In this document: positions 6,326 through 28,351 of the stretch, piece after piece
How positions within the stretch are numbered: position 1 is the stretch's first letter
Layout of the letters: each line of letters starts with the position of its first letter
Assembly (NCBI GenBank): GCA_902789415.1
Contig: CADAOD010000025.1
Coordinates: 1 to 37,367, forward strand
DNA: 37,367 nt
Reading direction: 5' to 3'
Source: an uncultured Prevotellaceae bacterium
GTDB lineage: Bacteria; Bacteroidota; Bacteroidia; Bacteroidales; Bacteroidaceae
The notes under the pieces: model-generated
Seen by the model: only the letters and a program-made list of their open reading frames with translations
Databases searched by the model: none
Told to the model about the DNA's origin: nothing
Program-made: the position numbers and the translations under genes

Positions 6326-7638
6326 CGGAACTGAACGGGTTGGCCGATATAGTTAGTATCAACAACGCCATCCTTGTAAACGGTATGACCGTTGCAAAGG
6401 GTTTGCTCAACACGCCACAGGAAGGTATGGTTCTCCATAGGGCTCCAACCACACTTGCTCTGGATAACATCCTTGGTAACGGTCCAAGCGGCATTAGGAC
6501 GCACAATCACGATGTCGGCCTGATAGCCCTCACGCAGATAGCCACGGTTGCGTACCTGGAACAAATCGGCGGGGCGATGGCACATCAGCTCAACTAAACG
6601 CTCGATGGTGAGCACACCCTTATCAACCAACTCTAACATGGTTACTAACGAGAACTGCAGCATGGGCATGCCACTGGCAGCCTTACAGCAGCCTCCCTCC
6701 TTCTGTTCTAACAGGTGGGGAGCATGGTCGGTACCAATAACGGCGATACGTCCATCGGCAGCAGCCTGGCGCAAGGCATCGCGATCGGCAGCCGACTTGA
6801 TGGCAGGGTTGCACTTGATACGGGTGCCTAAGGCTGTGTAATCGCGATCGCAGAAATAGAGGTGCGAGGGCGTAACCTCGGCAGTGATGCCATCGGTTAA
6901 CAGTTCCAACTCCTTAGCCGTAGTAAGATGGGCGATGTGCAGGTGGGCGTGGTGCTTCAGGGCCAGCTCTACAGCCAACTTGGTGCTCTGATAGCAGGCC
7001 TCAGCGCTACGAATCTCGGGGTGATGGGTTACCTTAGGGTCGTCGCCATACAGGCGCTTAGCCTCGGCCATATTGCGGTTAATCATGTCGGTATCCTCGC
7101 AATGCACCATGATAGGCATCTGGGCGGTAGAGAATATCTTTTCTAACGCCTCACGACGATCTACGAGCATGTTACCCGTTGAACTGCCCATGAAGAGCTT
7201 GATGCCAGGAATACGATGCACATCGAGCTGCGAAAACAGATCGACATTATCGTTGGTGGCACCGAAAAAGAAACTGTAGTTGACGTGACTTTTCTGAGCG
7301 GCTAACTGAAACTTCTCGTTGAGGGCCTCGAGCGTGGTAGTCTGCGGCACGCAATTGGGCATATCGAAATAGGTGGTAACGCCACCTGCAGCTGCTGCCC
7401 TACTCTCGCTGTCGATATCGGCCTTGGCGGTTAAGCCGGGCTCACGAAAGTGCACATGATCATCAATCAGACCGGGGAGTACGAAACATCCCGAAGCATC
7501 AATTACTTCGTCGAATGATGCGTTCGGGACGGTGTTTCCTTCTACAATCTTAGTTATCTTAGAATCTTCGACGATGACAGAACCGTCGAATTTGTTAGCT
7601 TCGTTAACGAGCGTTCCGTGTAGAATCAGGCGTTTCAT
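6322..7638 (-). CDS. pyrC: Dihydroorotase
   Basis: This enzyme interconverts carbamoyl aspartate and dihydroorotate, step three of pyrimidine synthesis, in the cytoplasm. The 438-residue length fits the class I type. The zinc ligands are visible: HVH (61-63) in DDHVHFREPGL, the carboxylated Lys147 in IKLFMGSS, His179 in VHCED, the HIAH segment (234-237) and Asp304 in GTDHAPH. It sits between a lipoprotein gene, whose 3' end overlaps the pyrC start by 35 bp, and the MetH reactivation gene, coupled by ATGA. The ATG giving MKRLILHGTL is the natural start, so the 35-bp overlap looks real. Confidence 0.95.
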   Translation of the reverse strand: MKRLILHGTLVNEANKFDGSVIVEDSKITKIVEGNTVPNASFDEVIDASGCFVLPGLIDDHVHFREPGLTAKADIDSESRAAAAGGVTTYFDMPNCVPQTTTLEALNEKFQLAAQKSHVNYSFFFGATNDNVDLFSQLDVHRIPGIKLFMGSSTGNMLVDRREALEKIFSTAQMPIMVHCEDTDMINRNMAEAKRLYGDDPKVTHHPEIRSAEACYQSTKLAVELALKHHAHLHIAHLTTAKELELLTDGITAEVTPSHLYFCDRDYTALGTRIKCNPAIKSAADRDALRQAAADGRIAVIGTDHAPHLLEQKEGGCCKAASGMPMLQFSLVTMLELVDKGVLTIERLVELMCHRPADLFQVRNRGYLREGYQADIVIVRPNAAWTVTKDVIQSKCGWSPMENHTFLWRVEQTLCNGHTVYKDGVVDTNYIGQPVQFR

Positions 7639-8377
7639 TGTTTACTTGTGGTTGAACAGGAGTAGGTGGAACATCTTCAACAAGTCCGTTCTGACGAGCC
7701 TGAATCTCATTGGCCATCTGATAGTACTGCTTAACGTAAGGATCGTTCTTAAACTTCTTGGTGGCCTTGCTCATAATGTCCTCGATCTGTGGGGTGAGGA
7801 TAGGATACTGGTAACTGCTGGTTATCATCATAAACACACCAGGACCAAGCACATTATCAAAGTTATCGACAATAAAGTTGGTTACCAGCGAATCCTCCTG
7901 CATGGCAATACGATTAGCCTCGGCAGTGAGCTGACGGTTGATGACGTTCTCGTCGATACCCTCGAGCAGCATCTGACTCTGCTTGTGCGAGAGCTCGTTG
8001 AGCTCGTTGCCCAGCTGATCGTGACGCTTCATAAACTGGTAAAGCTTCTCGTTGAGTGGCGAACCACTAACTGAACGATTGGTATTGTCGATATGTATCT
8101 CGATTTCGCCCTGCTCAACTACTACTGGCACCATCATAGGCTCATCGTCCATATACAGACTGGCCATCTTAACAGTGTCGAGCAAGCCGGCGAACTTAAA
8201 TTTTCCATGTACAACATCGCACGAGTCGAGGTTCTTCAACTCGTCGTTAACCATTGTTTTGAGGTAAAGCTTACTTCCATCGAGAGCCGACACAGAGGTT
8301 GAGCCCTGAATATTATAGGATTCAGCACACGATGCAAAAGTAACTGCTGTTAGTAATGCGTAGAATATCTTGTTCAT
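7604..8377 (-). CDS. DUF4369-like lipoprotein
   Basis: The 257-residue product begins MNKIFYALLTAVTFASC, with lipobox FASC (Cys17). Residues 20 to 105 follow the beta-rich DUF4369 layout (SALDGSKLYLKT, VVHGKFKFAG, SLYMDDEP, VVVEQGEIEIHID), usually found at the N-terminus of thioredoxin-like lipoproteins in Bacteroidota. Here the thioredoxin part is absent; instead there is a long helical segment (about 110-235) and a Pro/Asn-rich tail. Such proteins are often annotated as thiol:disulfide interchange-related, but no CxxC is present, so redox activity is unlikely. It is first in a minus-strand operon with pyrC and the MetH domain. Confidence 0.8.
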   Translation of the reverse strand: MNKIFYALLTAVTFASCAESYNIQGSTSVSALDGSKLYLKTMVNDELKNLDSCDVVHGKFKFAGLLDTVKMASLYMDDEPMMVPVVVEQGEIEIHIDNTNRSVSGSPLNEKLYQFMKRHDQLGNELNELSHKQSQMLLEGIDENVINRQLTAEANRIAMQEDSLVTNFIVDNFDNVLGPGVFMMITSSYQYPILTPQIEDIMSKATKKFKNDPYVKQYYQMANEIQARQNGLVEDVPPTPVQPQVNNETPDSTRNAR

Positions 8378-8396
8378 AACATATTGTTTTCGGGCG

Positions 8397-8426
8397 CAAA
8401 ATTACAACTATATATTGAGGCACAAA
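8397..8426 (-). promoter_or_regulatory. Promoter for the lipoprotein-pyrC operon
   Basis: On the minus strand TAATTTTG (8397-8404) is a -7 box and TTTG (8423-8426) a -33 box with an 18-bp spacer, slightly short. The leader to the ATG at 8377 would be about 13 nt. Confidence 0.6.
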
Positions 8427-8433
8427 AATAATT

Positions 8434-8459
8434 TTGCGCATTTTAAAACAAATGCGCAA
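8434..8459 (-). terminator. Terminator for the DivIC-membrane protein operon
   Basis: Perfect 10-bp arms ttgcgcattt (8434-8443) and aaatgcgcaa (8450-8459) enclose a 6-nt loop. Read on the minus strand it follows the membrane-protein stop by 8 nt and leads into a T-rich stretch. Confidence 0.75.
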
Positions 8460-8467
8460 TCTTTTAA

Positions 8468-8866
8468 TTATTTTTTTGCCTCTTTTTCGAGTTCGCTACC
8501 AATTCGGTGCATTGAATACAACTGCAACAAGGCAGCTATCAACAGTACGACAACCCACTTGTTATACACATATTCTATATAGGTAATATAGCTTAAGCCA
8601 AAATAATTGCCTTTGCTGGCAAACATCAGCAGGGCGGCTACCAGGAACAGCACATCGCTAATAAGCATCATGCGGCGCAGGCGACGGATGGTAAAATTCT
8701 GACCCTCGTAGCGCTGCAGCATCTGCATGGAACTGAAACACACAGCACCGATGGCAAAAATATAAGGGGCACTGCCCCACCCTAATAATGTAGTACCGGC
8801 ACCGATGGCCATTAAAATACCGCCAAACAGGAAGATGGCGGTTTGCAGTTTATTCAACTCTCTCAT
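8468..8866 (-). CDS. Small four-helix membrane protein, unknown function
   Basis: The 132-residue protein has four hydrophobic segments (about 9-29, 33-48, 68-84 and 103-118), a basic stretch RRLRRMM between the second and third, and a charged C-terminus EKEAKK. I do not recognise a catalytic motif. The start overlaps the end of the DivIC-like gene by 17 bp, so the two are co-translated; the pairing suggests an envelope or division-related role, but this is inference from position only. Confidence 0.75.
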   Translation of the reverse strand: MRELNKLQTAIFLFGGILMAIGAGTTLLGWGSAPYIFAIGAVCFSSMQMLQRYEGQNFTIRRLRRMMLISDVLFLVAALLMFASKGNYFGLSYITYIEYVYNKWVVVLLIAALLQLYSMHRIGSELEKEAKK

Positions 8867-9209
8867 TAGTCTCTAACGGTTTAGCTTCGCGATCATCATC
8901 GCTTAATACAAATATATCTTCATCGTCGGCCTTCATAAAATAGCGTTCGCGCGCTATCTTCTCGATGGCCTTAGGATTACGGTCGAGCTCCTTAATCTGA
9001 GCCTGATCGCGCTCAAAGTCGGCTTCGAACTTCTCCTTCTCGTCAGTGAGCTCGGCTATACGCTGGCGATTCTTGAAATGGCTCCAAAGACTGTTATCAT
9101 CAAGGAAACCCACCAGCAATACACCAATGATACAAACCACGGCATACTTAAAGTAAACCGAGCGCCACACCAGCAGTGCGTAAACCTTAATACTCATCAG
9201 AACTTTCAT
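8850..9209 (-). CDS. DivIC/FtsB-like septum formation initiator protein
   Basis: Bitopic division proteins of this family join FtsL and FtsQ to activate septal peptidoglycan synthesis. The 119-residue product has a short cytoplasmic N-terminus, one membrane helix (about 22-36), a periplasmic coiled coil (about 50-80, RIAELTDEKEKFEADFERD), and the family ending NPKAIEKIARERYFMKADDEDIF, in which the ARERYFM segment is diagnostic. Start set at the ATG 9209; the in-frame TTG at 9233 lies inside the -7 box. The C-terminal tail is acidic. It lies divergent to dnaX. Confidence 0.88.
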   Translation of the reverse strand: MKVLMSIKVYALLVWRSVYFKYAVVCIIGVLLVGFLDDNSLWSHFKNRQRIAELTDEKEKFEADFERDQAQIKELDRNPKAIEKIARERYFMKADDEDIFVLSDDDREAKPLETNERVE

Positions 9210-9230
9210 ACCAATATTATAATTTGCCTG

Positions 9231-9238
9231 CAAAGTTA
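9231..9238 (-). promoter_or_regulatory. -7 box for the DivIC-like operon
   Basis: TAACTTTG on the minus strand fits TAnnTTTG and ends 22 nt before the ATG at 9209. The -33 region falls in a palindromic repeat and has only a weak TTCG match. Confidence 0.6.
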
Positions 9239-9247
9239 CATTTTTTT

Positions 9248-9314
9248 AGGCACGAATTACGCGAATTACACGATTTTTTTTATTATTTCGTGTTAATTCG
9301 TGCAATTCGTGCCT
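9248..9314. repeat. Imperfect inverted repeat between divergent dnaX and divIC promoters
   Basis: Arms of 26 nt (9248-9273, starting aggcacgaattac) and 27 nt (9288-9314, ending gcaattcgtgcct) pair with about two mismatches and one bulge around an AT-only loop. Each arm contains near-repeats of gaattac. It fills the space between the two -7 boxes. Confidence 0.85.
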
Positions 9315-9323
9315 AATTTTCAC

Positions 9324-9331
9324 TATCTTTG
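9324..9331 (+). promoter_or_regulatory. -7 box for dnaX
   Basis: TATCTTTG lies 24 nt before the dnaX ATG at 9356. The -33 box would fall in the right arm of the palindrome, where only TTCG occurs. Confidence 0.65.
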
Positions 9332-9355
9332 CACCACGAAATTAAATTTAGCTTT

Positions 9356-11170
9356 ATGGAATATATCGTTTCGGCCAGAAAATACCGTCCGCTGAGCTTT
9401 GATACAGTGGTAGGTCAAGCGGCCCTCACTACTACACTGAAGAACGCAGTGAAGAGTGGGAAGCTGGCCCATGCCTATCTGTTTTGCGGACCGCGTGGTG
9501 TGGGTAAAACCACCTGCGCACGTATCTTTGCCAAGGCCATTAACTGTCAGCACCCCACGGCTGAGGGCGAGGCTTGTAATGAGTGTGAATCGTGCCAGAG
9601 CTTTAACGAGCAGCGTTCGCTGAACATCTTTGAGCTCGACGCCGCATCGAACAACTCGGTTGAGCACATCAAGACCCTGATGGAGCAAACACGCATTCCA
9701 CCGCAGTTGGGCAGGTATAAGGTGTTTATCATCGACGAGGTGCACATGCTGTCGACAGCTGCCTTCAACGCGTTCCTGAAGACGCTGGAGGAGCCACCTG
9801 CACACGTGATATTCATTCTGGCTACCACCGAAAAGCATAAGATACTGCCTACCATCCTGAGCCGTTGCCAGATATACGACTTTGAGCGTATGACCATACG
9901 CAACACGATCGACCACCTGAAGCATGTGGCCGAGCAGGAGGGCATTACCTACGAGGAGCAGGCACTGGCCGTTATCGCCGAAAAGGCTGATGGCGGTATG
10001 CGCGACGCCCTCTCGATATTCGATCAGGCAGCATCATTCTGTCAGGGTAACATTACCTACGAGAAGGTGATTGAGGACCTGAACGTGCTGGATAGCGAGA
10101 ACTACTTTAAGATTATCGACCTGGCTATAGATAATAAGGTGAGCGACATTATGGTGCTGCTGAACGGCGTGATTAACAAAGGCTTTGACGGCGGACTGCT
10201 GATACAAGGTCTGGCTAAGCACGTACGCAACGTACTGATGGCACGCGACCCACAGACACTGCCCCTGCTGGAGGTGAGCGACCAGATGCGCGCACGCTAC
10301 GAGGAGCAAGCCAAGAAATGCCAGATACCTTTCTTGTACGACGCGCTGAAGCTGATGAACCAGTGCGATATTAACTACCGCCAGTCGAGCAACAAGCGAT
10401 TGCTGGTAGAGCTCACGCTGATTGAGATAGCCCAGATAACACAGCCAGCGGAGGACGGTGCGAGTGCGGGGCGCAAGCCCCGACGACTGAAATCCCTGTT
10501 TAAGAACATAATTCAGCAACAGAAGCCCAAGAACGCAGCCCCACAGGTAGCTGCGGCTAAAGTTGCTGCATCGGCTACTGCAGCTGTTACTGCAGCAGCC
10601 AGCGAGAGCACAACGGCTAACACAGCCAACAAGGCAAGCACTGCTGCTACCACAACCACTACTACCAGCAAGCCCAAGCTATCACTGGGTAACATCGGCT
10701 TCTCATTCAAGAAAATGGGCCAAAAGAATAATGAGACACAGAAGGGCGGCATGCAGATTATACCAGGATCGATAAACATGCCTACCGGACAGGACACCAT
10801 TACCGATGCACAGTTTACACAAACCGACCTGGAATTCCAGTGGATGGCCATGTGTAACCGTATGCCGCAAAAGCTGAGTGGTATTGCTACCCGCATGAAG
10901 AACATGAACCCTGAGATAACAGAGTTCCCCAAGGTTGAGGTGGTGGTGGATAACGACCTGATTAAACAAGATATAGAGGAAATCCAGAAGAGCATTGCCA
11001 AAACCCTACAGATATATCTGCACAACGACCAGATACAGCTATCGGTACGTGTAGCCGAACAAACGGAACACGTAAAGATACTATCGCGGCGCGAACAGTT
11101 TGAGCAGATGGCAGAAAAAAATGCTGCCATAGCAAAGCTACAGCAGGCATTTGATTTGGAATTGGCTTGA
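9356..11170 (+). CDS. dnaX: DNA polymerase III subunits gamma and tau
   Basis: DnaX is the AAA+ motor of the clamp loader and organises the replisome. The 604-residue protein has Walker A GPRGVGKT (45-52), zinc ligands Cys64, Cys74, Cys77 and Cys80 (CNECESC), the DAASNN motif (95-100), Walker B IIDEVHML (125-132) and the SRC arginine-finger motif (169-171). After the lid domain (to about 365) comes a low-complexity Ala/Thr linker (about 395-445) and a C-terminal tau-like domain (about 480-600). Start at 9356; an upstream in-frame ATG lies within the promoter. I saw no clear A-rich frameshift site for making gamma. A terminator overlaps the stop. Confidence 0.96.
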   Translation: MEYIVSARKYRPLSFDTVVGQAALTTTLKNAVKSGKLAHAYLFCGPRGVGKTTCARIFAKAINCQHPTAEGEACNECESCQSFNEQRSLNIFELDAASNNSVEHIKTLMEQTRIPPQLGRYKVFIIDEVHMLSTAAFNAFLKTLEEPPAHVIFILATTEKHKILPTILSRCQIYDFERMTIRNTIDHLKHVAEQEGITYEEQALAVIAEKADGGMRDALSIFDQAASFCQGNITYEKVIEDLNVLDSENYFKIIDLAIDNKVSDIMVLLNGVINKGFDGGLLIQGLAKHVRNVLMARDPQTLPLLEVSDQMRARYEEQAKKCQIPFLYDALKLMNQCDINYRQSSNKRLLVELTLIEIAQITQPAEDGASAGRKPRRLKSLFKNIIQQQKPKNAAPQVAAAKVAASATAAVTAAASESTTANTANKASTAATTTTTTSKPKLSLGNIGFSFKKMGQKNNETQKGGMQIIPGSINMPTGQDTITDAQFTQTDLEFQWMAMCNRMPQKLSGIATRMKNMNPEITEFPKVEVVVDNDLIKQDIEEIQKSIAKTLQIYLHNDQIQLSVRVAEQTEHVKILSRREQFEQMAEKNAAIAKLQQAFDLELA

Positions 11171-11196
11171 GTATTACAACTCAAGCCATTTTTTTT
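11164..11196 (+). terminator. Rho-independent terminator of dnaX
   Basis: Arms ggcttgag (11164-11171) and ctcaagcc (11180-11187) are perfect and followed by a T run. The left arm spans the dnaX stop codon; the T run touches the stop of the convergent receiver gene. Confidence 0.88.
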
Positions 11197-11197
11197 A

Positions 11198-11554
11198 TTA
11201 CTCTCCGAGCAACTTCTTAAGCAACGTCATGCACTCATCGCGGTTAACGGGCTTTGAGAGAAATCCGCAACAACCGGCCTTTTCGGCAGCAGTACGGTCG
11301 CTATCAAAGGCGTTGGCCGTAAGGGCTACAACTGGCAGATCGGGATGCTTCTCCTTAATCTGGCGAGTGGCCTCCAAGCCATCCATGACTGGCATCTTAA
11401 TGTCCATCAGCACCAGATCGTAAGCGTTAGCATCACACATCTCAACGGCAATCTGACCGTTCTTGGCACGCTCGAACTCAAAATCTTTCTTCAGCAGATA
11501 CGTCATCAGTACGTAATTGCTGTCATTGTCTTCAGCTATTAAAATCTTTTTCAT
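11198..11554 (-). CDS. Single-domain response regulator (receiver only)
   Basis: The 118 residues make a complete CheY-like receiver: acidic pocket Glu8-Asp9 (IAEDND), phospho-acceptor Asp51 (LVLMDIKMP), Thr79 (ALTAN) and Lys101 (LSKP). No output domain follows. The sequence resembles receivers normally fused to the C-terminus of hybrid kinases. It lies 11 nt downstream of the XylE-type gene and in the same operon as the sensor kinase at 13044-14885, its likely phosphodonor. It could pass phosphate to an Hpt protein or act by protein binding; no Hpt or DNA-binding partner is in this window. Confidence 0.92.
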   Translation of the reverse strand: MKKILIAEDNDSNYVLMTYLLKKDFEFERAKNGQIAVEMCDANAYDLVLMDIKMPVMDGLEATRQIKEKHPDLPVVALTANAFDSDRTAAEKAGCCGFLSKPVNRDECMTLLKKLLGE

Positions 11555-11565
11555 GTGTCAAAAAG

Positions 11566-13047
11566 TTATTTGTTATTAAGTTTATCTTTCCACATCTTAC
11601 TCATATCCTCGAGTGTCTTACCCTTAGTCTCGGGCACAAGGCGCCATACAAACAGGGCTGCCACTACGCAGATAATGCCATAGAGTCCGTAAGTGAACCA
11701 GTGACCAAAGTCGTCGCCCTCACTGAGGTGCATGTTGAACATGGGCACGAACGATGAGCTGACGATGAAGTTTGAAATCCACTGGAAAGCTACAGCGATA
11801 GCTACAGCTCCACCACGGATGGTGTTGGGGAAAATCTCGGCAATGAGCACCCAGGTGATAGGACCCCACGAGAACATGAACGAAGCCGAGTAAACCAACA
11901 GCGATGCAGCTGTAAGCATCTCGAGTCCGGCATGTCCGAAGGTGAGTGCCACACCGAAGGCACCAAGTGCCATACCCAACGAACCGCTAATCAACAAAGG
12001 CTTACGTCCCCACTTCTCGACGGTGAACACAGCCACCAGGGTGAACGTAATATTAATAATACCCATAAATACGGTAAGAATCATGGGGTTATCCATTCCC
12101 ATATCGCCAAAGATACGTGGTGCATAGTAAAGCACAGCGTTGATACCTACAGCCTGCTGGAATACTGAGAGCATGATACCCACAAAGATGCAGATAGCAC
12201 CGTAGGTGAGCAGTTTCTCGGTCTTAACCACCATGGTATCCTTGATATCCTGCAGAATCTGCTGAGCCTTGGCAGTACCGTTGATCTTAGCCAGAATACC
12301 CTCGGCCTTCTTATCCTCGCCAATAGAAACAAGGTAACGTGGCGTTTCGGGCACAAAGCAGATGAGCAGTGCAAACAAGCCTGCAGGCACAGCCTCGCTA
12401 CCAAACATATAACGCCAACCGGTAGTAACAGTCCACTGGGCGGCAGGAGTAATCTCGGCAATCTGCTTACCGATATCCTCAACCAGTGGCTGCAGGTGAT
12501 CGCCCAGAATAAAGAAGTTAACGAAGTAAACTACCAGCTGACCGAAGATAATGGCAAACTGGTTCCAGCTTACAAGCATACCACGGATATTTGAAGGGGC
12601 TACCTCGCCGATGTACATAGGACAGATGGCCGAAGCCAGACCTACACCGATACCACCGATGACACGGTAGAAGTTGAACATCAGAGCCAGAGTATAAGTG
12701 GGCTGTCCGTACTCGAAGAACAGAAACTCGGGGTCCATCGATCCGAGAGCTGAAATAAAGAACAGCAAGCCAGCAATGATGAGCGACTTTTTACGTCCCA
12801 GGTTAGTGGCCAGGAATCCAGAGATGGCCGAACCGATGATACAACCAATCAAGGCCGAGGCAGAGGTAAAGCCGTGCCAGCCATCGGTGTAATCAAAATC
12901 GCTTGCAGTTTTAAAAAACGCCTGTAATCCCTTTTCTGCTCCAGATATAACAGCTGTGTCGTATCCGAACAGCAGACCGCCAAGTACGGCGACCATCACG
13001 ATTGAAATGAGGTAGGCCTTGCTACCTTGTTCTGTTTGTTGATTCAT
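11566..13047 (-). CDS. xylE: MFS sugar:proton symporter, XylE-like (xylose)
   Basis: The 493-residue product has 12 membrane segments and the sugar porter signatures GRKKS, PETPRYL, GRKP and PETKGKTLE. It aligns through its length with E. coli XylE: GGLLFGYDTAVISGAE, the NQFAIIFGQ segment, the sugar-binding VFQQAVGIN (QQ and Asn), SWGPITWVL and AVAFQW all keep the xylose-contacting residues as I recall them. It should import D-xylose, or a related pentose, with protons. The gene is coupled by ATGA to the upstream sensor kinase and followed by a receiver gene. The divergent GH51 arabinofuranosidase supports a pentose role. Arabinose cannot be excluded as the substrate. Confidence 0.92.
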   Translation of the reverse strand: MNQQTEQGSKAYLISIVMVAVLGGLLFGYDTAVISGAEKGLQAFFKTASDFDYTDGWHGFTSASALIGCIIGSAISGFLATNLGRKKSLIIAGLLFFISALGSMDPEFLFFEYGQPTYTLALMFNFYRVIGGIGVGLASAICPMYIGEVAPSNIRGMLVSWNQFAIIFGQLVVYFVNFFILGDHLQPLVEDIGKQIAEITPAAQWTVTTGWRYMFGSEAVPAGLFALLICFVPETPRYLVSIGEDKKAEGILAKINGTAKAQQILQDIKDTMVVKTEKLLTYGAICIFVGIMLSVFQQAVGINAVLYYAPRIFGDMGMDNPMILTVFMGIINITFTLVAVFTVEKWGRKPLLISGSLGMALGAFGVALTFGHAGLEMLTAASLLVYSASFMFSWGPITWVLIAEIFPNTIRGGAVAIAVAFQWISNFIVSSSFVPMFNMHLSEGDDFGHWFTYGLYGIICVVAALFVWRLVPETKGKTLEDMSKMWKDKLNNK

Positions 13048-14885
13048 AACTCTTTATTTGTTTTAAGTTTAATTGGCAAACTAAGTGTAAAGGTGGTTCC
13101 GGCAGTAGAGGTTTGATTGAGCACGAGCGTGCCACCCAACTTTACCACGGTTTCGTGGCAATAGGCCAGTCCCAATCCTAATCCTTCCTTAAACTCATCA
13201 ACCTTGGTAAAGCGGTTGTAGATGGTACCTATCTTATCCGACGGAATACCACAACCCGTATCCTCGATGGTGAAGTGGAAGTTGTTTTTATCTTTGCTGA
13301 GTGTAAGGCGGATGTAGCCCTCGTCAGTAAACTTGACTGAGTTCTCAAGGATGTTACCCAACATCTGCAACAGGCTGTCGCAATTGGTGGTAATGGTCTT
13401 ATCCTGATCTTTGGTCATATCCATCAGTTCTAAATGCACACGCATGGGATCGACCGGTGGCATGGCACTCATGGCCTTATGACAGATATCAAGGGCATCG
13501 GCCTCTTCGGCATCCTTCAGCAAATCCTTGGTATGCTCGTTGGCCAGGGCTAACATCTTATTAACTAACGATGTAATCTGACGGGTGTTCTTGCCGATGG
13601 TATCGGCCAAACCCTGACGCTCTTCGGGCTCGAACTCGGCACAGGGGTCCATCAGCACCTGCGTAAAGCCATTAATGATGTTAAGCGGGGTACGTATCTC
13701 GTGACTCACACTACGGATAAACTCGGTCTTCATCTCGTCGGCGGCAGCTACCTGCTTGTAGGCACGCTTCAGCTCCTTGTTCTTGGCAAGCAGCATTTCC
13801 TGGTAGCGACGCTTACCGTAGATGGTTAATGCCAGACCTACAATCAGCATCAAAGCCAAAACCATGGCTACCACCAATACGATGTTCATCATGCGGGCAG
13901 CCTTTTGTTTCTGGTTGAGCAGAACCATCTCCTCTTCCTGATTCTCGATATTCTCGGCAATTATCACACCAGTTATCGAGTCGCGTGTATGCATCAGGTC
14001 GCGCTGCATCTGGAAAGCCTTATCGGTCTCGCCTAAATAGGTATAGATATCGCAGCTTACCAGATAGCGCTCTTTCAGGTTGGGAAACTTCTCTACCTCG
14101 GCCAAAGCCTCGTTAACATGCCCATCGAGCAACTTTTTATAAATACGGGCGTAAGGCAGGAAAATGTCGCCAATGGGATTGGCATTCATGGCATCGGCGT
14201 GTTCGGCAATGGCGATATTCTTGTAAAACTCGCCGTACTTGCGCTGCTTAAACATCACAATGGCCTTCATGGCATAAGCATCGGTAATGCCACGCCAATA
14301 TTCCTTCTGGTCTTTATTGCGTGCCAGCTCCTCTAAGTCCTTCTCAAGCCATTTCAGCGTTTCGTTGGTATCGTTATTGAGTTGAATGTGCGCCAGGCCT
14401 AAGTACAGAAAGCTCAAACCGTCCTTCTCGTATTTAGTACCTTTTATCAATTCGATAGCACGCTGATGCTCGCGCAGGGCACCGGGGATGTTACCGCAGG
14501 CATTATACACATAGCCCAACATCTTAGGAGCCAAATACTGCTCATCTTTAGCCTCATCGCGACGGCGCACCAAATCATCCTTCATGGTGTTGGCAATATG
14601 ATAGGCATCGTGGATATTCATGCGGTCGAGATTATACATCACACCACATACCCACGAGTCGTAATAACCCTCGTTGTCCTTACATGATACGCAATGTGCC
14701 TGATAAGCCCAGCAAGCGGCATACACCTTGTGAGCATCCTCCTGAGAGCAGGCGGCCCACATAGCATCGCGCAACTTGTTGTGCTTCGCGGTGTCGTTAC
14801 AGAGGTCTGTCTGAGACGCTGCAGGTGACGTAACCAACAGAGTAGCAGCACAGAAGATATATTTTACCCAATGGTTCAAAGTCAT
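13044..14885 (-). CDS. Membrane sensor histidine kinase with N-terminal TPR-like sensor
   Basis: The 613-residue protein starts with a signal peptide (cleavage near PAAS, 20-24), followed by a periplasmic helical-repeat region (about 30-300) with TPR character. One membrane helix (333-356) leads to a coiled coil and an intact kinase core: H box SVSHEIRTPL (His395), N box NILENSVKF (Asn515), G1 DTGCGIP (542-548) and G2 GLGLG (568-572). No receiver is fused. The next two genes are a XylE-type symporter (ATGA overlap) and a lone receiver, so the kinase probably signals to that receiver. Several Cys residues in the periplasmic part (29, 46, 58, 65, 68, 80) could form disulfides. The ligand is unknown; pentose supply or flux is a guess from context. 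Confidence 0.92.
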   Translation of the reverse strand: MTLNHWVKYIFCAATLLVTSPAASQTDLCNDTAKHNKLRDAMWAACSQEDAHKVYAACWAYQAHCVSCKDNEGYYDSWVCGVMYNLDRMNIHDAYHIANTMKDDLVRRRDEAKDEQYLAPKMLGYVYNACGNIPGALREHQRAIELIKGTKYEKDGLSFLYLGLAHIQLNNDTNETLKWLEKDLEELARNKDQKEYWRGITDAYAMKAIVMFKQRKYGEFYKNIAIAEHADAMNANPIGDIFLPYARIYKKLLDGHVNEALAEVEKFPNLKERYLVSCDIYTYLGETDKAFQMQRDLMHTRDSITGVIIAENIENQEEEMVLLNQKQKAARMMNIVLVVAMVLALMLIVGLALTIYGKRRYQEMLLAKNKELKRAYKQVAAADEMKTEFIRSVSHEIRTPLNIINGFTQVLMDPCAEFEPEERQGLADTIGKNTRQITSLVNKMLALANEHTKDLLKDAEEADALDICHKAMSAMPPVDPMRVHLELMDMTKDQDKTITTNCDSLLQMLGNILENSVKFTDEGYIRLTLSKDKNNFHFTIEDTGCGIPSDKIGTIYNRFTKVDEFKEGLGLGLAYCHETVVKLGGTLVLNQTSTAGTTFTLSLPIKLKTNKEL

Positions 14886-21594: not shown

Positions 21595-22362
21595 ATGAGC
21601 AATATGACAACTATCATAGCAGGACCTTGCGTTATCGAGTCGGCAGAATTGCTGGACACGGTAGCGCAGAAATTGTTGAGCATCAACAAAACATATAGAA
21701 CTGATATTATATTTAAAGCCTCGTTCGATAAGGCTAACCGCACATCGATTACATCATTCCGTGGCCCTGGTATCGACCGTGGACTGCAGATGTTGGCAGA
21801 TATCAAATCGAAGTACGGACTGCGCATACTGACGGATATCCACGAGAGCTGGCAGGCTAAGCCCGTTGGCGAGGTGTGCGACGTGATCCAGATACCAGCC
21901 TTTTTGTGTCGACAGACCGATTTGATTGTAGCAGCTGCCAAGACTGGTGCTGTAGTAAACATTAAGAAAGCCCAGTTCCTGAGTGGTAAGGATATGGTTT
22001 ACCCCGTAGGCAAGGCTAAGGATGCCGGTGCCAAGGAGGTATGGCTTACTGAGCGTGGCAACATGATGGGCTACAACAACCTGGTGGTAGATTTCCGTAA
22101 CATACCCGACATGCTGGAGATTGTACCAACGGTTATCATGGACTGTACACATAGTGTTCAGCGCCCAGGTGGCAGCGATGGAAAGACAGGTGGCGATCGC
22201 CGCTTTGTGCCCCAGATGGCATTGGCTGCAAAGGCCTTCGGCGCTACAGGTTACTTCTTCGAGGTACACCCCACTCCCGATCAGGGCCTCAGCGACGCCG
22301 CCAACATGTTAGAGCTTGACAAGCTCGAGCCATTGGTTAAAAAGCTAATCGCTAATGATTAA
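21595..22362 (+). CDS. kdsA: 3-deoxy-8-phosphooctulonate synthase (KDO 8-P synthase), metal-dependent type
   Basis: KdsA condenses arabinose 5-phosphate with phosphoenolpyruvate to Kdo 8-phosphate for the LPS inner core. Motifs: IIAGPCVIES (7-16), FKASFDKANRTS, FRGPG, DIHE, QIPAFLCRQTDL, NIKKAQFLS and TERG. The Cys in AGPC (residue 12) replaces the Asn of the E. coli enzyme and marks the metal-dependent class; the other ligands are visible as His in DCTHSVQ, Glu in FFEVHP and Asp in PDQGLSD. The ATG at 21604 (MTTIIAGPC) is also possible, since the promoter lies so close. The 3' end overlaps kdsD by 8 bp. Confidence 0.96.
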   Translation: MSNMTTIIAGPCVIESAELLDTVAQKLLSINKTYRTDIIFKASFDKANRTSITSFRGPGIDRGLQMLADIKSKYGLRILTDIHESWQAKPVGEVCDVIQIPAFLCRQTDLIVAAAKTGAVVNIKKAQFLSGKDMVYPVGKAKDAGAKEVWLTERGNMMGYNNLVVDFRNIPDMLEIVPTVIMDCTHSVQRPGGSDGKTGGDRRFVPQMALAAKAFGATGYFFEVHPTPDQGLSDAANMLELDKLEPLVKKLIAND

Positions 22363-23314
22363 AATGAAGACAATAAGAGATATCGCAATACAATGTATTA
22401 AGGACGAGGCGGAGGCAGTGCTGAGCCTGATTCCACAGCTGGACGAGAATTTCGACAAAGCTGTAGAACTGATTCTGAACTGCAAAGGCAAAGTGATCGT
22501 CACAGGCGTGGGCAAGAGCGGCCATATCGGTGCCAAGATTGCTGCCACCCTGTCGAGCACGGGCACTCCATCGTTCTTTACAAACCCTCTGGATGTATTC
22601 CACGGCGACTTGGGCGTGATGACGCAGGACGACGTGGTTTTAGCTATATCAAACTCGGGACAGACTGATGAGCTGCTGCGTTTCATCCCCATGGTACTGC
22701 ACATGCAGATACCTATCATAGGCATGAGCGGCAACCCGCAATCGCTGTTGGCCAAATACTCCACCTACCACCTGAACGTGCAGGTTGAGAAAGAGGCTTG
22801 TCCGCTGAACCTGGCTCCTACCAGCAGCACTACAGCACAGCTGACAATGGGCGACGCACTGGCCATAGCATTGATGGAGAAGCGTAACTTCCAGCCACGC
22901 GACTTTGCTCAGTTCCACCCAGGTGGCGAGCTTGGTAAGCGTCTGCTGACTACCGCTCAGGATGTGATGCGTACAGAGGACATGCCAGTATTGCCACCAG
23001 AGATGCATTTGGGCGAGGCCATCATCCTGGTGAGCAAGGGCAAGTTAGGACTTGGTATCGCCATGGTAAACAACGAGATAGTAGGATTAATTACCGACGG
23101 TGACATACGTCGCGCCATGGAGAAATGGCAGGCACAGTTCTTCGACCGTACCGTGAGCGACATCATGACACGCACCCCAAAAGTGGTAAAACCTGATACA
23201 AAGATAACAGAGATTCAAAGAATCATGAACAAATACAAAGTACACTCGGTACTGGTTACTGATGGCGAAAACCACCTGTTAGGTGTGGTTGACCATTACT
23301 CGTGCATGATTTAA
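22355..23314 (+). CDS. kdsD: Arabinose-5-phosphate isomerase (KpsF/GutQ family)
   Basis: It converts ribulose 5-phosphate into arabinose 5-phosphate, the substrate of KdsA. The 319-residue length is standard. The SIS domain (about 35-170) contains GVGKSGHIG (51-59), the FHGDLG loop and SNSGQTDE (99-106), then FHPGGELGKRL. Two CBS domains follow (about 200-315: DVMRTEDMP, ITDGDIRRAM, DIMTRTPKV, VVDHYSC). Start at 22355 overlaps kdsA by 8 bp; an ATG at 22364 just after the kdsA stop would give MKTIRD and is an alternative. Together the two genes supply two consecutive steps of Kdo synthesis. Confidence 0.95.
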   Translation: MIKMKTIRDIAIQCIKDEAEAVLSLIPQLDENFDKAVELILNCKGKVIVTGVGKSGHIGAKIAATLSSTGTPSFFTNPLDVFHGDLGVMTQDDVVLAISNSGQTDELLRFIPMVLHMQIPIIGMSGNPQSLLAKYSTYHLNVQVEKEACPLNLAPTSSTTAQLTMGDALAIALMEKRNFQPRDFAQFHPGGELGKRLLTTAQDVMRTEDMPVLPPEMHLGEAIILVSKGKLGLGIAMVNNEIVGLITDGDIRRAMEKWQAQFFDRTVSDIMTRTPKVVKPDTKITEIQRIMNKYKVHSVLVTDGENHLLGVVDHYSCMI

Positions 23315-23316
23315 TG

Positions 23317-23336
23317 AAGTGTGAACAGTGAACGTT
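23317..23336 (+). repeat. Junction spacer with two 7-bp TGAAC units
   Basis: Two units of the form NGTGAAC run into gtt and the ATG at 23337, echoing the ATTGAAC array and att-ATG ending at 3803-3834. Confidence 0.45.
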
Positions 23337-26300
23337 ATGAAGACTATAAAAAGAATACTAATAGCTTTGATGCTCATCATTCCTTTAGGATTGATGGCGG
23401 CCTATCTGTTTAAGACACTGGAAGCCCGCGACGGACTGACATCCAGTCAGGTAAACTGCATATTAAAGGACTCAAGAGGTTACATGTGGTTTGGAACCCC
23501 TGCAGGCCTATATCGCTTTGACGGATATACCTTCCGTAACTTCCAAAGCGACTCGCAGAACGGTAGCTCGCTGAGCGATAGCTATATCAACTCTATCCAG
23601 GAAACACTCGATGGCAACCTGCTCATCGAAACAGCCTCGGGCTATTGTATCTACCACCCACAAACAGAGAGCTTTGAGCGCGACATGAAGCAAGCCTTTG
23701 CACGCATGGGTATCGAGACTATCCCATCGGTGGTATATGTAGATAAGCACAAGAATCTTTGGGGAGCCATCCCTAACAAGGGCGTGGTATGCTATAACCA
23801 ACAGCAGCAAACACTGCACGAATTTGGTTATACCGACGATGCGAAAGGTGTGCCACAAGGCGTGGTATGCTCAATCAGCGAATGTAAGGAGGGCGCCCTG
23901 ATTGTTTACGACGACGGTAAGATAGCCTGCTGCGATGTGATGCACCAGCAAAATACACTCTGGGTTAAAGAGGGCATCCCTGCCCTGCAGAATCATCGCA
24001 CCAAATCATTACGCGCCTATGCCGACGTAAATGACAATATCTGGCTGTACGGACAGGGCACGCTGGTGATGTACGACAAACAAAAAGGCACTTGGGATTA
24101 CACCATGGGACAGAAATTAGGTGTAACAGGTCTGGGTGTTGACCGTAACATCAACGGCATGGCTGGTAATGCAGGTGGCATCTGGGTTGGTAGCGACCAG
24201 TTAGGACTGATTCATTTCGATCCCAAGACCTTTGAGTATCAGGAGGTTCAGCCTAAGAACATCAACGACCAGCAATGGGTAAAAGACCATACCAGCATTC
24301 AGAGTCTGTATATGGACGATACTGGTTTGCTGTGGGTAGGTACCGAGAAATCGGGCGTGGCCTATACCGGTAAGTACATCTACCGCTTTGGATCGGACCT
24401 GATAGGCGATGTAACCGCAATGGCTCAGCATGCCAATGGTAGCATCTGGTACGGCACAAGCGACAGAGGTGTGATAGGTTACGACGGACCTCTGGCCAGT
24501 CTGAAGGTATCGTGCATGAGCAACACCCCTGATGGAAGTATCTGGATTGGTTCGAAACGTAACGGACTGACACGTATCAAGGATGGCGTATCAACCATCT
24601 ACTCGGTAGCCAAGGATAGCGTTCGTACCATTATCGACGACCATATCAACGCACTGACATGCGATAAGATTGGTAACCTGTGGATTGCCACTAACGGTGG
24701 ACTGCAGGTGTACAACCCACGCATGAACTCGTTCTCGAGCTACACACGCGAGAACGGCAAGTTGAGCACCAACAGCATTACAAGCTTGTTCTACAAGCAG
24801 GATGCCAATGCCAACAACCTGTTGGTAGGTACCAGCGAGGGACTGATTATCCTGAACCTCTCGACAACAGAGAAAAAGGTTCTGACAGGTAACAGCACCA
24901 ACCTGAAAAGCTTTACCAACAACTATATTACACAGATATTCCAGGATTCGCGCGGACTGATTTGGGTAGGTACCCGCGAAGGACTGAACATACTGAACCT
25001 GGAGACTGATGAGTTGGACTATCTGACCGAAAAGCAGGGTTTGTGTAACAACAATATCTGCGGTATTGCCGAGGATAAGAACCACTGCATATGGGTAACC
25101 ACCAGTCGTGGTGTGAGCCGTATTGTGATTCAGCGCAACCACGAGGATGGTGTGAACAACTATGGTATGTACAACTACAGTACTGCCGACGGCTTGCAAA
25201 GTAACGAGTTTAATACTGGCGCCATCCTAACCAAACAGGACGGCGAAGTGCTGTTGGGCGGACTGTACGGTATAAACTGGGTGCTGCACAGAGACGGTGC
25301 CGAAAAGGAGGACCTGCCACGTGTAATGCTTACCCAGCTGTTTATTGGCGAGGAAGAGGTGATTACCGGACATGAGTATCATGGCAAGGTAATACTCTCG
25401 CAGGCACTGAACGAGACCAGTCGTATCGACTTGTCGCACAATCAGAACACCTTCACCATCAAGTTTGCTGCTGGTAACTACAACCAGAGCGAGCGCCTGC
25501 AGTTTATGTACTGGATGGAAGGCCGAGATGAGGACTGGCGCCATGGTGATGCCCTATCGCATGGTGTAACATTCAACAACCTGTCGGCAGGTAAATACTA
25601 TCTGCACGTAAAGGCCATCAACGCCGAGGGTGCTGTAAGTAACCAGGAGCGTGTATTAGAAATTAATGTTGAGCGCCACTTCCTGCTGTCGTGGTGGATG
25701 ATAGCGGCCTATATCATTGTGCTGGCAGTGATTATCTACTTCTGGCGCATAGGTATCGATCAGTTGAAGGCCATCAAGCACCGTAAGGAGGCTGTGATTA
25801 AGGAACTGCAGCTGCAGCGCGAGGAGATTAAGGCCGCAAGCGACGACCTGCGACAGCCTATGGCACGTATGACCTCTATCATTGGCAACCTGTCGGAGAA
25901 GGAAAAGACGCTTGAGGAGAAGGAACAGCTGAACGCCCTGCACTCGCAGATGCTGCAGATTATCACCCGTGTGGCTGATATGCAGATGAATCTGGAGCAC
26001 CCAGAGGAGCGCGCCAAGAACACGGTTCAGGACCGCTTGAACATGAACAGCAAGGGCGAGATAGAGTTGCCTGAGATTGCCAGCGAGGTGCTGACATCAG
26101 AGTCGACCTATTCGCGTGCTGCTATCGACTCGCCTACCTCGAAGTTCACGGTTATCATGATTGATGACAACGAGGAGTTCCTGGAGTTTGCTGCTGCACG
26201 ACTGCGCTTTGTATATAACTTCCACGTTTATAACGACATTGAGAAGGCTGCCGAGGACCTGGAGCAGATTAAGTGCGACCTGGTGGTTTGCAAGCAGGAT

Positions 26301-27119
26301 ATGTTTGGCATGACTGGTAGCGACCTGTGTAACCAGTTAAAGACCAACTACAAGACACAGGATATGAAGTTTATCCTGATGACCGACACTGTACTGACAC
26401 CTCAGGATATGCGCTCAAAGAATATCACCCTGAGTGCCGATGACTATCTGGCCAAACCATTCAACATGCAGGAGGCCACGATGCGATTCAACACGGTATT
26501 GGGCTTGGGTGCCGTACAGATGGACAGCAACCTGATTGAAGGTGCAGAGACACGCCGACTGGAAGGACAGAGCAGCAGTATGACCACTGCTACCGAGACT
26601 ATGGATGCAGGCGAGATTGAGAGCACTGCACTGGCTGAGGTAAGCGCCGACGACCCAATGAACAAGGTGGACACCGTGGTTAAGAACCCACGCAGTCAGC
26701 AGACTGCAACCAACAACCTGCCTGAGGGCATTAAGGGCTACGACGACGAAGAGGAAGGCGGTGGTAACGACTTCTCGATGACCGACGCTATGGACCTTCA
26801 GTTGCTGAAGAACATTGAGCAATACGTATTACAGAATATGAGCCGCGGACAGATTAGCTTGGAGGAGATGGCCAATGCCATGGGCATGGGACGTGTACCT
26901 TTCTTCCACCGTGTACGCAGCTTGACAAGCAAAACACCAGCAGAACTTGTGAGAGACATGCGACTGAAACATGCCTGCATTCTGCTGAAGCGCACTAATA
27001 TTAACATGAGTGAGTTGGCATCGAATATTGGATTTATGACTGCCGAGAACTTTATTAATATCTTCAAGGAAAAGTTCGGCATGACGCCACTTGAATACAG
27101 ATTGAAACATCGTAAATGA
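23337..27119 (+). CDS. Pseudo-hybrid transmembrane regulator: propeller, Y_Y_Y, degenerate DHp and receiver, AraC output
   Basis: The 1260-residue protein (numbering from the ATG at 23337) has a signal or anchor helix, a two-component-regulator propeller with repeated D-x-x-G-x-[IL]-W-[VI]-G-T blades (about 30-645), a Y_Y_Y domain (about 690-780), a membrane helix (783-803), a DHp-like coiled coil (825-890), a receiver-like domain (935-1052), a long acidic Ser/Thr-rich linker (1053-1150) and an AraC DNA-binding domain (1155-1260). The phospho-His position is Asp836 (SDDLRQPM instead of SHELRTPL). No N, G1 or G2 box follows; only about 45 residues separate the DHp from the receiver. In the receiver the acidic pair Asp943-Asp944, Thr1016 and Lys1040 remain, but the phospho-Asp position is Lys986 (VVCKQDMF). 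It cannot run a standard phosphorelay. It lies 22 nt after kdsD and is coupled by ATGA to the phospholipase D gene. Confidence 0.9.
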   Translation: MKTIKRILIALMLIIPLGLMAAYLFKTLEARDGLTSSQVNCILKDSRGYMWFGTPAGLYRFDGYTFRNFQSDSQNGSSLSDSYINSIQETLDGNLLIETASGYCIYHPQTESFERDMKQAFARMGIETIPSVVYVDKHKNLWGAIPNKGVVCYNQQQQTLHEFGYTDDAKGVPQGVVCSISECKEGALIVYDDGKIACCDVMHQQNTLWVKEGIPALQNHRTKSLRAYADVNDNIWLYGQGTLVMYDKQKGTWDYTMGQKLGVTGLGVDRNINGMAGNAGGIWVGSDQLGLIHFDPKTFEYQEVQPKNINDQQWVKDHTSIQSLYMDDTGLLWVGTEKSGVAYTGKYIYRFGSDLIGDVTAMAQHANGSIWYGTSDRGVIGYDGPLASLKVSCMSNTPDGSIWIGSKRNGLTRIKDGVSTIYSVAKDSVRTIIDDHINALTCDKIGNLWIATNGGLQVYNPRMNSFSSYTRENGKLSTNSITSLFYKQDANANNLLVGTSEGLIILNLSTTEKKVLTGNSTNLKSFTNNYITQIFQDSRGLIWVGTREGLNILNLETDELDYLTEKQGLCNNNICGIAEDKNHCIWVTTSRGVSRIVIQRNHEDGVNNYGMYNYSTADGLQSNEFNTGAILTKQDGEVLLGGLYGINWVLHRDGAEKEDLPRVMLTQLFIGEEEVITGHEYHGKVILSQALNETSRIDLSHNQNTFTIKFAAGNYNQSERLQFMYWMEGRDEDWRHGDALSHGVTFNNLSAGKYYLHVKAINAEGAVSNQERVLEINVERHFLLSWWMIAAYIIVLAVIIYFWRIGIDQLKAIKHRKEAVIKELQLQREEIKAASDDLRQPMARMTSIIGNLSEKEKTLEEKEQLNALHSQMLQIITRVADMQMNLEHPEERAKNTVQDRLNMNSKGEIELPEIASEVLTSESTYSRAAIDSPTSKFTVIMIDDNEEFLEFAAARLRFVYNFHVYNDIEKAAEDLEQIKCDLVVCKQDMFGMTGSDLCNQLKTNYKTQDMKFILMTDTVLTPQDMRSKNITLSADDYLAKPFNMQEATMRFNTVLGLGAVQMDSNLIEGAETRRLEGQSSSMTTATETMDAGEIESTALAEVSADDPMNKVDTVVKNPRSQQTATNNLPEGIKGYDDEEEGGGNDFSMTDAMDLQLLKNIEQYVLQNMSRGQISLEEMANAMGMGRVPFFHRVRSLTSKTPAELVRDMRLKHACILLKRTNINMSELASNIGFMTAENFINIFKEKFGMTPLEYRLKHRK

Positions 27120-28351
27120 CATTAAGCAAACACCATCAGACAGGAATAGCCACCATGCTATTCCTACTGATTTCTCTCATCGCACAAGCCAGAACCTCTG
27201 ATTCGCGCATCGTGGATCAGATGAGTAGTGTTGGCGTGAAATTCTACAACGGTAACGAAGTAAAGCTGATTATGTCGGGTAAGGACAAGTTCGACCTCTT
27301 GTTCGAGGATATCCGACAGGCTAAGAGTAGTGTACACCTTGAGTATTTTAACTTTCGCAACGACTCGATAGCCTCGCTGCTGTTCGACATCCTGCGCGAA
27401 AAGCGCAAGCAGGGTGTTGAGGTACGTGCGCTGTTCGACGGTTTTGGTAACGACTCGAACAACCAGCCACTGGAGAAGCATCACCTTAAAAGTCTGCGTA
27501 ACGACAGTATCGACATCCACGAGTTCGACCCAGTACGTTTTCCTTGGGTAAACCACATCTGGCCTCGCGATCATCGTAAGATAGTTGTGATTGACGGACG
27601 CATAGCCTATACAGGCGGTATGAACGTGGCCGATTACTATATTGTGGGCACCAAGCAGGTGGGCGAATGGCGCGATATGCACTGCCGCATTGAGGGTCCT
27701 GTGGTTAACGAGTTGCAGGATATCTTTGCGCGCATATGGCAAAAGGTAACCAAAGAGCAGCTTACTGACAAGAAATACTTCCAAGCACAGGAAAAAGGCG
27801 ATAAGATGGTTGGTATCGCAAATCGCGAGCCAAACAAGACCAACAAGATTATGCGCCAGTTCTATATCAATGCGCTCGACGATGCACAGGATTCTGTACA
27901 GATTATCAACCCCTATTTTACACTCACGCCATCTGTTAAAAAGGCCATTCATCGTGCCATCAAGCGTGGTGTAAAGGTTGACATACTAGTATCGGCCAAG
28001 AGCGATATCCCCTTAACGCCCGATGCCGTGTTCTACAACGTGCACAAGCTGATGAAGAAGGGCGCCAACATCTGGCTGTATCAGCCGGGATTCCACCACT
28101 CAAAGATTATGATGGTAGATGGCCGATTCTGCACCGTGGGTAGCACCAATCTGGATGCACGCAGCTTGCGATACGACTACGAGGTGAACGCGCTGATTAT
28201 TAACAAAGAGGTAACCCAGGAGTTGCAGGATATGTTTATACGCGACACCAAGAAGAGCGTGAAGCTTACCCCCGAGGAGTGGAACAAGTTCCGTACAGGC
28301 TGGCAGAAGTTCCGTGGTTGGTTTGCCCAGTTATTTACCCCATTTATGTAA
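27116..28351 (+). CDS. Phospholipase D-family protein, probable cardiolipin synthase
   Basis: PLD-type cardiolipin synthases join two phosphatidyl groups at the membrane. The 411-residue protein has two intact HKD motifs: H153-K155-D160 in DHRKIVVIDG and H328-K330-D335 in HHSKIMMVDG, each followed by the expected GGMN and GSTN. There is one N-terminal hydrophobic segment (about 10-25), which may be a signal peptide or anchor, where many bacterial Cls proteins have two helices; the enzyme may therefore be at the outer face of the membrane. The start overlaps the regulator stop by ATGA, so its translation depends on the regulator. A different phosphodiester substrate is possible. Confidence 0.9.
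   Translation: MTLSKHHQTGIATMLFLLISLIAQARTSDSRIVDQMSSVGVKFYNGNEVKLIMSGKDKFDLLFEDIRQAKSSVHLEYFNFRNDSIASLLFDILREKRKQGVEVRALFDGFGNDSNNQPLEKHHLKSLRNDSIDIHEFDPVRFPWVNHIWPRDHRKIVVIDGRIAYTGGMNVADYYIVGTKQVGEWRDMHCRIEGPVVNELQDIFARIWQKVTKEQLTDKKYFQAQEKGDKMVGIANREPNKTNKIMRQFYINALDDAQDSVQIINPYFTLTPSVKKAIHRAIKRGVKVDILVSAKSDIPLTPDAVFYNVHKLMKKGANIWLYQPGFHHSKIMMVDGRFCTVGSTNLDARSLRYDYEVNALIINKEVTQELQDMFIRDTKKSVKLTPEEWNKFRTGWQKFRGWFAQLFTPFM

Follow-up and report, generated by a model that had tools for sequence, protein, structure and literature searches.

In hybrid two-component systems (HTCSs) of Bacteroidota such as BT4663 and BT4124, a propeller, a Y_Y_Y domain, a membrane helix, a receiver and an AraC-type domain follow one another in this order. 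Contact at the S/CHIP motif suppresses DNA binding in the HTCSs studied, and substitutions at this contact lead to phosphorylation-independent binding (PMC11253607). Also described is BT4236, an HTCS of B. thetaiotaomicron with Gln848 at the His site and the motif CSIP-EK, which, as Gao et al. suggest, may work independently of phosphorylation (PMC11253607). In RitR, HP1043 and 3KTO a positive residue occupies acidic triad-2, and Arg, Lys and His together account for 4% of the substitutions in aspartate-less receivers (PMC4395418). SusR-like regulators are described as membrane-bound sensors activating transcription (PMC3878776), and DivL-type pseudo-histidine kinases as having an HK-derived part whose ordinary kinase function is gone, DivL regulating another kinase, CckA (PMC12632262).

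The regulator described here lies in a window of 37,367 nucleotides from an uncultured Prevotellaceae bacterium, the whole stretch of DNA that was analysed. It shares the domain order of BT4663 and BT4124, including two features of functional HTCSs, the propeller/Y_Y_Y periplasmic sensor and the AraC-type DNA-binding domain, but lacks HisKA with its His, HATPase_c, the receiver phospho-Asp and the S/CHIP-DK motif between receiver and DNA-binding domain (REC-DBD). BT4236 is similar in having the His site replaced and the REC-DBD motif off consensus; its reported changes concern the His and the motif, whereas the regulator family is also devoid of the ATPase and the Asp. RitR and HP1043, both soluble response regulators, share with it, as far as described, a receiver fold without phospho-Asp and a basic pocket residue; in the regulator the lysine sits at the phospho-Asp position itself (206/207 orthologs). 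SusR-like regulators, in which no phosphorelay is known, resemble the role proposed here, whereas the regulator falls in with the AraC-type HTCSs and has retained a DHp-like part and a receiver part. Unlike DivL as described, it joins sensor and DNA-binding domain in one chain and has no ATPase domain. The initial annotation knew of no system of this exact layout; literature searches found no contradiction, but BT4236, aspartate-less or pseudo-receivers and SusR-like regulators are close precedents.

Domain organization

The open reading frame runs on the + strand from a GTG at 23328 to a stop codon ending at 27119, and its translation contains no internal stop. Residues are counted from the GTG, which adds 3 to the ATG-based count of the initial annotation and turns its Asp836 and Lys986 into Asp839 and Lys989. 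The features are as follows.

21595..22362, +, kdsA (KDO-8-phosphate synthase), same gene run (TIGR01362, 348.8 bits, cut-off 314)
22355..23314, +, kdsD-type arabinose-5-phosphate isomerase (SIS + CBS), directly upstream (TIGR00393, 322.8 bits, cut-off 203.7)
23328..27119, +, pseudo-hybrid two-component regulator, whole gene, 1263 aa (GTG start; in-frame ATG at 23337)
23406..25442, +, periplasmic beta-propeller sensor, residues ~27-705, limits set by eye (6 Reg_prop stretches, Pfam)
25476..25670, +, Y_Y_Y domain, residues 717-781 (Pfam, E 2.8e-10)
25674..25757, +, transmembrane helix, ~residues 783-810 (hydrophobic run, by eye)
25773..26003, +, DHp-like helical hairpin without phospho-accepting His, residues 816-892 (weak HisKA match, hhalign register, dN/dS)
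25842..25844, +, codon of Asp839, H-box His site (ortholog column)
26004..26141, +, short variable link at the place of the ATPase domain, residues 893-938 (ortholog lengths)
26142..26513, +, pseudo-receiver domain, residues 939-1062 (Pfam and hhalign)
26163..26165, +, codon of Asp946, first pocket acid (D in 207/207 orthologs)
26292..26294, +, codon of Lys989, phospho-Asp site (ortholog column)
26358..26369, +, alpha3-beta4 positions 1011-1014, HTCS inhibitory S/CHIP site, lost here (143 ortholog rows)
26514..26777, +, acidic linker, residues 1063-1150 (net charge in ortholog rows)
26535..26594, +, conserved motif 1070-1089 near the linker start (column entropy)
26778..27116, +, AraC-type HTH DNA-binding domain, residues 1151-1263 (HTH_18 at 1181-1258, E 4.5e-15, Pfam)
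27116..28351, +, cardiolipin-synthase-like PLD gene, overlapping the regulator stop (TIGR04265, 291.9 bits, cut-off 290; PLDc_2)

Pfam and sequence reading thus recovered the frame proposed earlier, namely propeller, Y_Y_Y domain, membrane helix, DHp-like part, receiver and AraC domain. The solved chain nearest to the sensor is 4a2l (E 2.9e-61, over residues 405-779). Response_reg (PF00072) matches residues 942-1050 above its cut-off (E 9.2e-12, 45.6 bits against 30.2) and the key phosphotransfer residue is gone, which defines a pseudo-receiver or aspartate-less receiver. With sensor and DNA-binding output on one chain and phosphotransfer absent, the protein would class, at the level of sequence, as a one-component regulator.

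Loss of the phosphotransfer sites and of the ATPase domain

Orthologs were merged by identical sequence, from 163 to 143 rows and, in a later set, from 273 to 207; the latter took in loci as well as 60 matches, among the matches listed, from new genomes without a locus. A further 110-row set holds some genomes twice.

The HisKA trace in the regulator lies below threshold (residues 830-885, E 0.034, 14.6 bits against a cut-off of 26.9), and when the cytoplasmic parts of 81 orthologs were scanned, 67 matched HisKA weakly at E<=1 (best E 0.0011). The DHp register was recovered weakly by hhalign (E 0.0022, probability 13%), placing S-D-D-L-R-Q-P on S-H-E-L-R-T-P. At the H-box His position, site 839, the 207 distinct orthologs carry Asp (174), Glu (31) or Asn (2) and never His; the Asp reported there initially belongs to an acidic state found in 205/207. 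The neighbouring site 840 is acidic in 207/207, and His872 is invariant in 143/143 rows.

HATPase_c gave no match in the regulator at E up to 1, nor does it appear in the 25 families listed out of 59 for the cytoplasmic part of the 81 orthologs, the unlisted families matching at most one member each. The stretch from residue 886 to 942 measures 53-57 residues in the 110 rows, not enough to hold an ATPase domain. An ATPase hidden in 885-935, which had been named beforehand as grounds for abandoning the proposal, was rejected, none being found on the Pfam search, the ortholog scan and the segment length.

Site 989 is Lys in 206 of the 207 orthologs and Met in one, Asp being found in none. An hhalign comparison of the 81 orthologs with nine HTCS relatives (seven with the Asp; two, L132 and L136, without a receiver) aligned Lys989 with the phospho-accepting Asp column (E 4.5e-40), which confirms the lysine noticed at first. 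Among the other receiver residues, Thr1019 (204/207) and Lys1043 (207/207) are kept. The lone Met989 row, L293, is also the only one of the 207 with Lys947, which stands at a metal-site position within this pocket. Kin of L293 were sought in a draw of 119 genomes of relatives, whose 24 matches all fell in already known genomes, and, since this gave no new genome, in a draw of 398. In relatives the receiver site is occupied by Glu, Ser or Asp.

At the S/CHIP positions the 143 rows have P in 0, H in 1, S/C in 16 and I in 54. On the DNA-binding side of S/CHIP-DK, the Asp is kept in 205/207 orthologs and Lys/Arg in 207/207 (K135, R72). Between receiver and HTH, the linker bears a median net charge of -13 (range -20 to -9, 110 rows). 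It had been pictured as a long acidic flexible tether; the acidity holds, but the picture is incomplete, as the linker contains some 20 residues that form a conserved motif, with entropy below 0.6 bits at 14/20 positions of 1070-1089 and hypervariable linker around it.

Descent and genomic neighbourhood

A sensor tree of 62 rows places the regulator in a kinase-less clade (support 94/94) nested among HTCSs, and two further lineages of the tree lost the kinase separately. Length and motif served to label thirty-one rows as HTCS; sequence patterns matched the His box, the ATPase box and the receiver Asp in 21, and Pfam confirmed kinase and receiver in 8 of the remaining 10. The last two, L132 and L136, have HisKA and HATPase_c without a receiver, and the argument for descent from HTCSs stands without them.

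Eight pairs were chosen for dN/dS, one of which fell outside the set, and some of the remaining seven were saturated. The ratios were 0.00-0.06 for the DHp-like part (6 computable of 7 pairs), 0.01-0.12 for the receiver (6/7) and 0.03-0.06 for the sensor (4 computable of 7). Judged by these ratios, purifying selection on the DHp-like segment is strong.

The order kdsD-regulator-PLD holds in 80/80 named loci, the best 80 of 202 and thus biased to close relatives. Against the KdsD equivalog model itself, the kdsD-type gene scores 305.1, short of the required 505. In 16 hand-picked genus genomes without the regulator, no remnant of it was detected beside kdsD, and a PLD match stands there in 15/16, L189 (a 9-kb stretch) having none. 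Where the gene lies hints at a connection with envelope genes (KDO, cardiolipin). Relatives in one other genus lie beside or near xylE.

Nine-letter words upstream of kdsA were counted in 77 loci that contain the regulator and 16 that lack it, kinship being ignored. The commonest, TATTTTTGC, occurs in 36/77 and 0/16, respectively, and resembles a promoter box; the other top words either vary this one or belong to the coding region of the gene preceding kdsA. A regulator-specific site there was rejected, TATTTTTGC being promoter-like and relatedness uncontrolled.

Proposed mechanism and alternatives

The regulator is, in our judgement, quite likely a former HTCS, now maintained as a one-component regulator that sits in the membrane, carries a pseudo-receiver and works independently of phosphorylation. 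We favour this reading because ATPase, His and phospho-Asp are absent while purifying selection, a fixed gene position and a place in the tree among HTCSs are found together. The initial proposal, that a sensor acting on DNA independently of phosphorylation has been selected for, is well supported at the sequence level by the conserved states at 839 and 989, dN/dS and synteny. The periplasmic propeller would bind a ligand, and movement would run through the membrane helix into the DHp-like hairpin, presumably still able to dimerise, and would reposition the two AraC domains, themselves presumably free of the S/CHIP contact that held them off DNA. The pseudo-receiver would be fixed or mechanically switched, its pocket lysine facing the invariant Asp946.

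It is possible, if doubtful, that the phosphotransfer pair was rewritten as a charge pair, acidic at the His site in 205/207 orthologs and Lys at the Asp site in 206/207, giving either a receiver-DHp salt bridge or a Lys that replaces Mg2+/phosphate beside Asp946 in a mechanical relay. In HK-RR complexes the H-box His and receiver Asp positions face each other when the receiver docks on DHp, so a salt bridge could staple receiver to DHp. Columns of the DHp-like part and of the receiver, compared at selected interface positions, showed no covariation signal. The relocation of Lys to 947 in one row would favour the in-pocket version over the staple. It also lends some support to the earlier idea that the lysine may lock a state through the acidic pair, since the residue moved within the pocket.

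That all three catalytic features are gone could be the mark of a decayed allele or pseudogene, but site states common to 207 distinct orthologs bar 3 rows, low dN/dS and fixed synteny refute this, and His or Asp, whose retention with the ATPase in relatives would have pointed to decay, is kept in 0/207. The lost S/CHIP contact, the fixed pocket lysine and the tight gene spacing would also suit a constitutive DNA binder with its receiver locked on, sensing gone and output set by expression of the kdsA-kdsD run; it seems unlikely, as purifying selection extends to the sensor and would be needless without input. We regard as improbable a proteolytic release in which the membrane part controls linker cleavage at or near 1070-1089, freeing the AraC domain: a largely invariant motif within hypervariable acidic sequence suggests a recognition site, but packing of the motif against the receiver, or binding of another protein by it, would explain its conservation just as well. 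Very improbable is phosphorylation in trans at another residue by a partner kinase or ATPase. The invariant His872 might serve it, a separate histidine kinase at 13044-14885 carries HisKA and HATPase_c, and proteins of the type of L002, a HATPase-only propeller paralogue, occur in 44/77 target-bearing against 4/122 target-free genus genomes. This co-occurrence is confounded by descent, as a single section of the genus may simply hold most copies of both genes. HisKA gives no match in L002 at E 1, and the regulator has no phospho-accepting Asp.

The protein probably represents a membrane sensor that switches genes in rumen Prevotella, having kept the shape of a phosphate relay and lost the phosphate-handling parts. 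If the charge pair is true, it would be a purely mechanical relay built on the old phosphorelay geometry. HTCSs have shed the kinase in at least three lineages of the 62-row tree. The family counts over 200 orthologs, can be set against HTCS outgroups and against relatives whose receiver site is Glu, Ser or Asp, and includes one case in which the lysine was relocated in nature. It offers a natural test of how phosphorelay domains can function without phosphorylation, and permits testing how the sensor can drive the receiver and DNA-binding domain without phosphate and how often HTCSs lose the kinase.

Domain content and conservation of the regulator

The target gene derives from a hybrid two-component system (HTCS) regulator, and its residues are counted here from the GTG.

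23328 (GTG; ATG at 23337) to 27119: target regulator gene, 1263 residues, no internal stops
26535-26594: motif about 20 residues long and for the most part invariant, lying early in the hypervariable acidic linker

Against Pfam, the target scores above cut-off for Reg_prop, Y_Y_Y, Response_reg and HTH_18, and HisKA shows up only as a trace. The absence of an ATPase domain, proposed in the initial annotation, was borne out by profile searches: no HATPase domain was matched in the target at E values up to 1, nor among the 25 listed of 59 families in a scan of 81 orthologs, the unlisted families each matching at most one of these orthologs. That annotation had also singled out Asp836 and Lys986 (839 and 989 in GTG numbering), and both states recur in the orthologs: among 207 distinct sequences, site 839 is Asp in 174, Glu in 31 and Asn in 2, and site 989 is Lys in 206 and Met in 1. 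All 207 carry an acidic residue at site 840, and Gln occupies site 843 in 200, where HTCS relatives have the Thr of the H-box. Asp946 and Lys1043 are invariant (207/207), Thr1019 is kept in 204 and Tyr1040 in 198. Pairwise identity falls as low as 50% (143 of the 207 orthologs), and dN/dS, in 6 computable of 7 pairs, was 0.00-0.06 for the DHp-like part and 0.01-0.12 for the receiver. The target was present in 78 of 200 genomes drawn from its genus at E 1e-150, and in 157 of 398 in a larger draw at E 1e-200.

One ortholog alone lacks Lys989: L293, which has Met there. No other ortholog shares its Lys at 947, where the pocket that holds 989 normally has its second metal-binding acid. According to PMC4395418, this second position is a lysine in RitR and positively charged in HP1043 and 3KTO, and one hypothesis holds that such a residue substitutes for the metal ion; Lys947 of L293 occupies the same pocket place as the lysine of RitR. 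As evidence on the pocket lysine, the shift is suggestive but not proof, because it is a single event in a single draft genome (86% complete).

Descent and loss of the kinase

A maximum-likelihood tree was built from 62 sensor domains. Target orthologs group at 100/100 and form, with relatives from genera g2 and g8, one kinase-less clade among the HTCS rows (94/94, just below the level starred by the program). In an ungapped alignment read by eye, the phospho-Asp site varies within this clade: the target family carries Lys, the two g2 proteins carry Glu, and seven g8 proteins that have no visible DHp carry Ser. One further g8 protein (L125, 1495-4938) retains the receiver Asp, yet lacks HisKA and HATPase matches; kinase loss therefore need not come after Asp loss.

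Outside the target clade nest two proteins of lineage g13 (L127, L128) and two of f24 (L198, L199), in which HisKA, HATPase and receiver matches are all absent. These are propeller-AraC regulators, kinase-less and receiver-less, of separate origin. In this sample the kinase has thus disappeared from HTCSs on three occasions or more, the target clade, g13 and f24 being separate in the tree. The receiver may have been lost before the kinase in the g13 lineage, since the sisters of L127 and L128 (L132, L136) are propeller-HisKA-HATPase-AraC proteins without a receiver match.

Several related proteins were also observed. Two paralogues in the target's own genome (L003, L004) combine propeller, Y_Y_Y and AraC domains and match neither kinase nor receiver models, their placement in the tree being unsure. 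Another own-genome paralogue (L002:919-4014; G000:C4:10083-13178) has propeller, Y_Y_Y and HATPase_c, with no HisKA, receiver or DNA-binding matches. Proteins of this type occur in 48 of 199 genus genomes, 44 of them with the target and 4 without (target only, 33; neither, 118), a co-occurrence confounded by descent. At locus L247, two propeller-type proteins adjoin (5087-8140, 8144-11263), one with an AraC-like and the other with an ATPase-like end, and at L245 and L246 a truncated protein adjoins an ATPase-ended one. With ends judged by eye, these arrangements look like HTCSs broken into pieces.

Gene neighbourhood

Among the 80 named loci (the best 80 of 202, biased to close relatives), the order kdsD-regulator-PLD is found in all 80 and kdsA in 78; the other two (L057, L084) lie at contig ends and start with kdsD or close to it. 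The PLD gene scores just above the cut-off of the cardiolipin synthase model. Sixteen genomes of the genus that lack the regulator, picked by hand, gave no target match at the locus, and PLD lies beside kdsD in 15 of them. A TATTTTTGC-type sequence shortly 5' of kdsA (L038 and other loci) was seen in 36 of 77 regulator-bearing loci versus 0 of 16 without; it resembles the -7 box of Bacteroidota promoters.

Regulator relatives occur in 2 of 6 g2 genomes. One is followed by xylE and then PLD (L148). After the other come an aquaporin-type gene and xylE, in that order (L147), and the sole PLD match there, a partial one, lies about 9 kb away at the edge of the fetched stretch. In g8, PLD adjoins the regulator in one of eight loci fetched (L149). 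The window itself carries a XylE-type sugar transporter (11566-13047, minus strand) 68% identical to that beside the regulator of L148.

Precedent and proposed mechanism

Pseudo-receivers, pseudo-histidine kinases, SusR-like regulators and BT4236 are already known. No description of the present layout was found in a search of titles and abstract openings, and the combination of features, how deeply it is conserved and the shift of the lysine appear to us to be new.

In HTCSs, as described in PMC11253607, the receiver keeps the AraC domain off DNA through the S/CHIP-DK motif until phosphorylation, and changes in this motif relieve the inhibition. In the target family, the S/CHIP part has Pro in 0 and His in 1 of 143 proteins, and the part in the DNA-binding domain is kept (Asp 205/207, Lys/Arg 207/207). 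Both members of the allosteric pair of the receiver, Thr and Tyr, are retained in 137 of 143 orthologs, versus 47% among pseudo-receivers generally, a figure from PMC12632262. The target probably works as a mechanical relay, in which the propeller would act through a dimeric hairpin on the AraC domains, with the pseudo-receiver resting in a lysine-held state.
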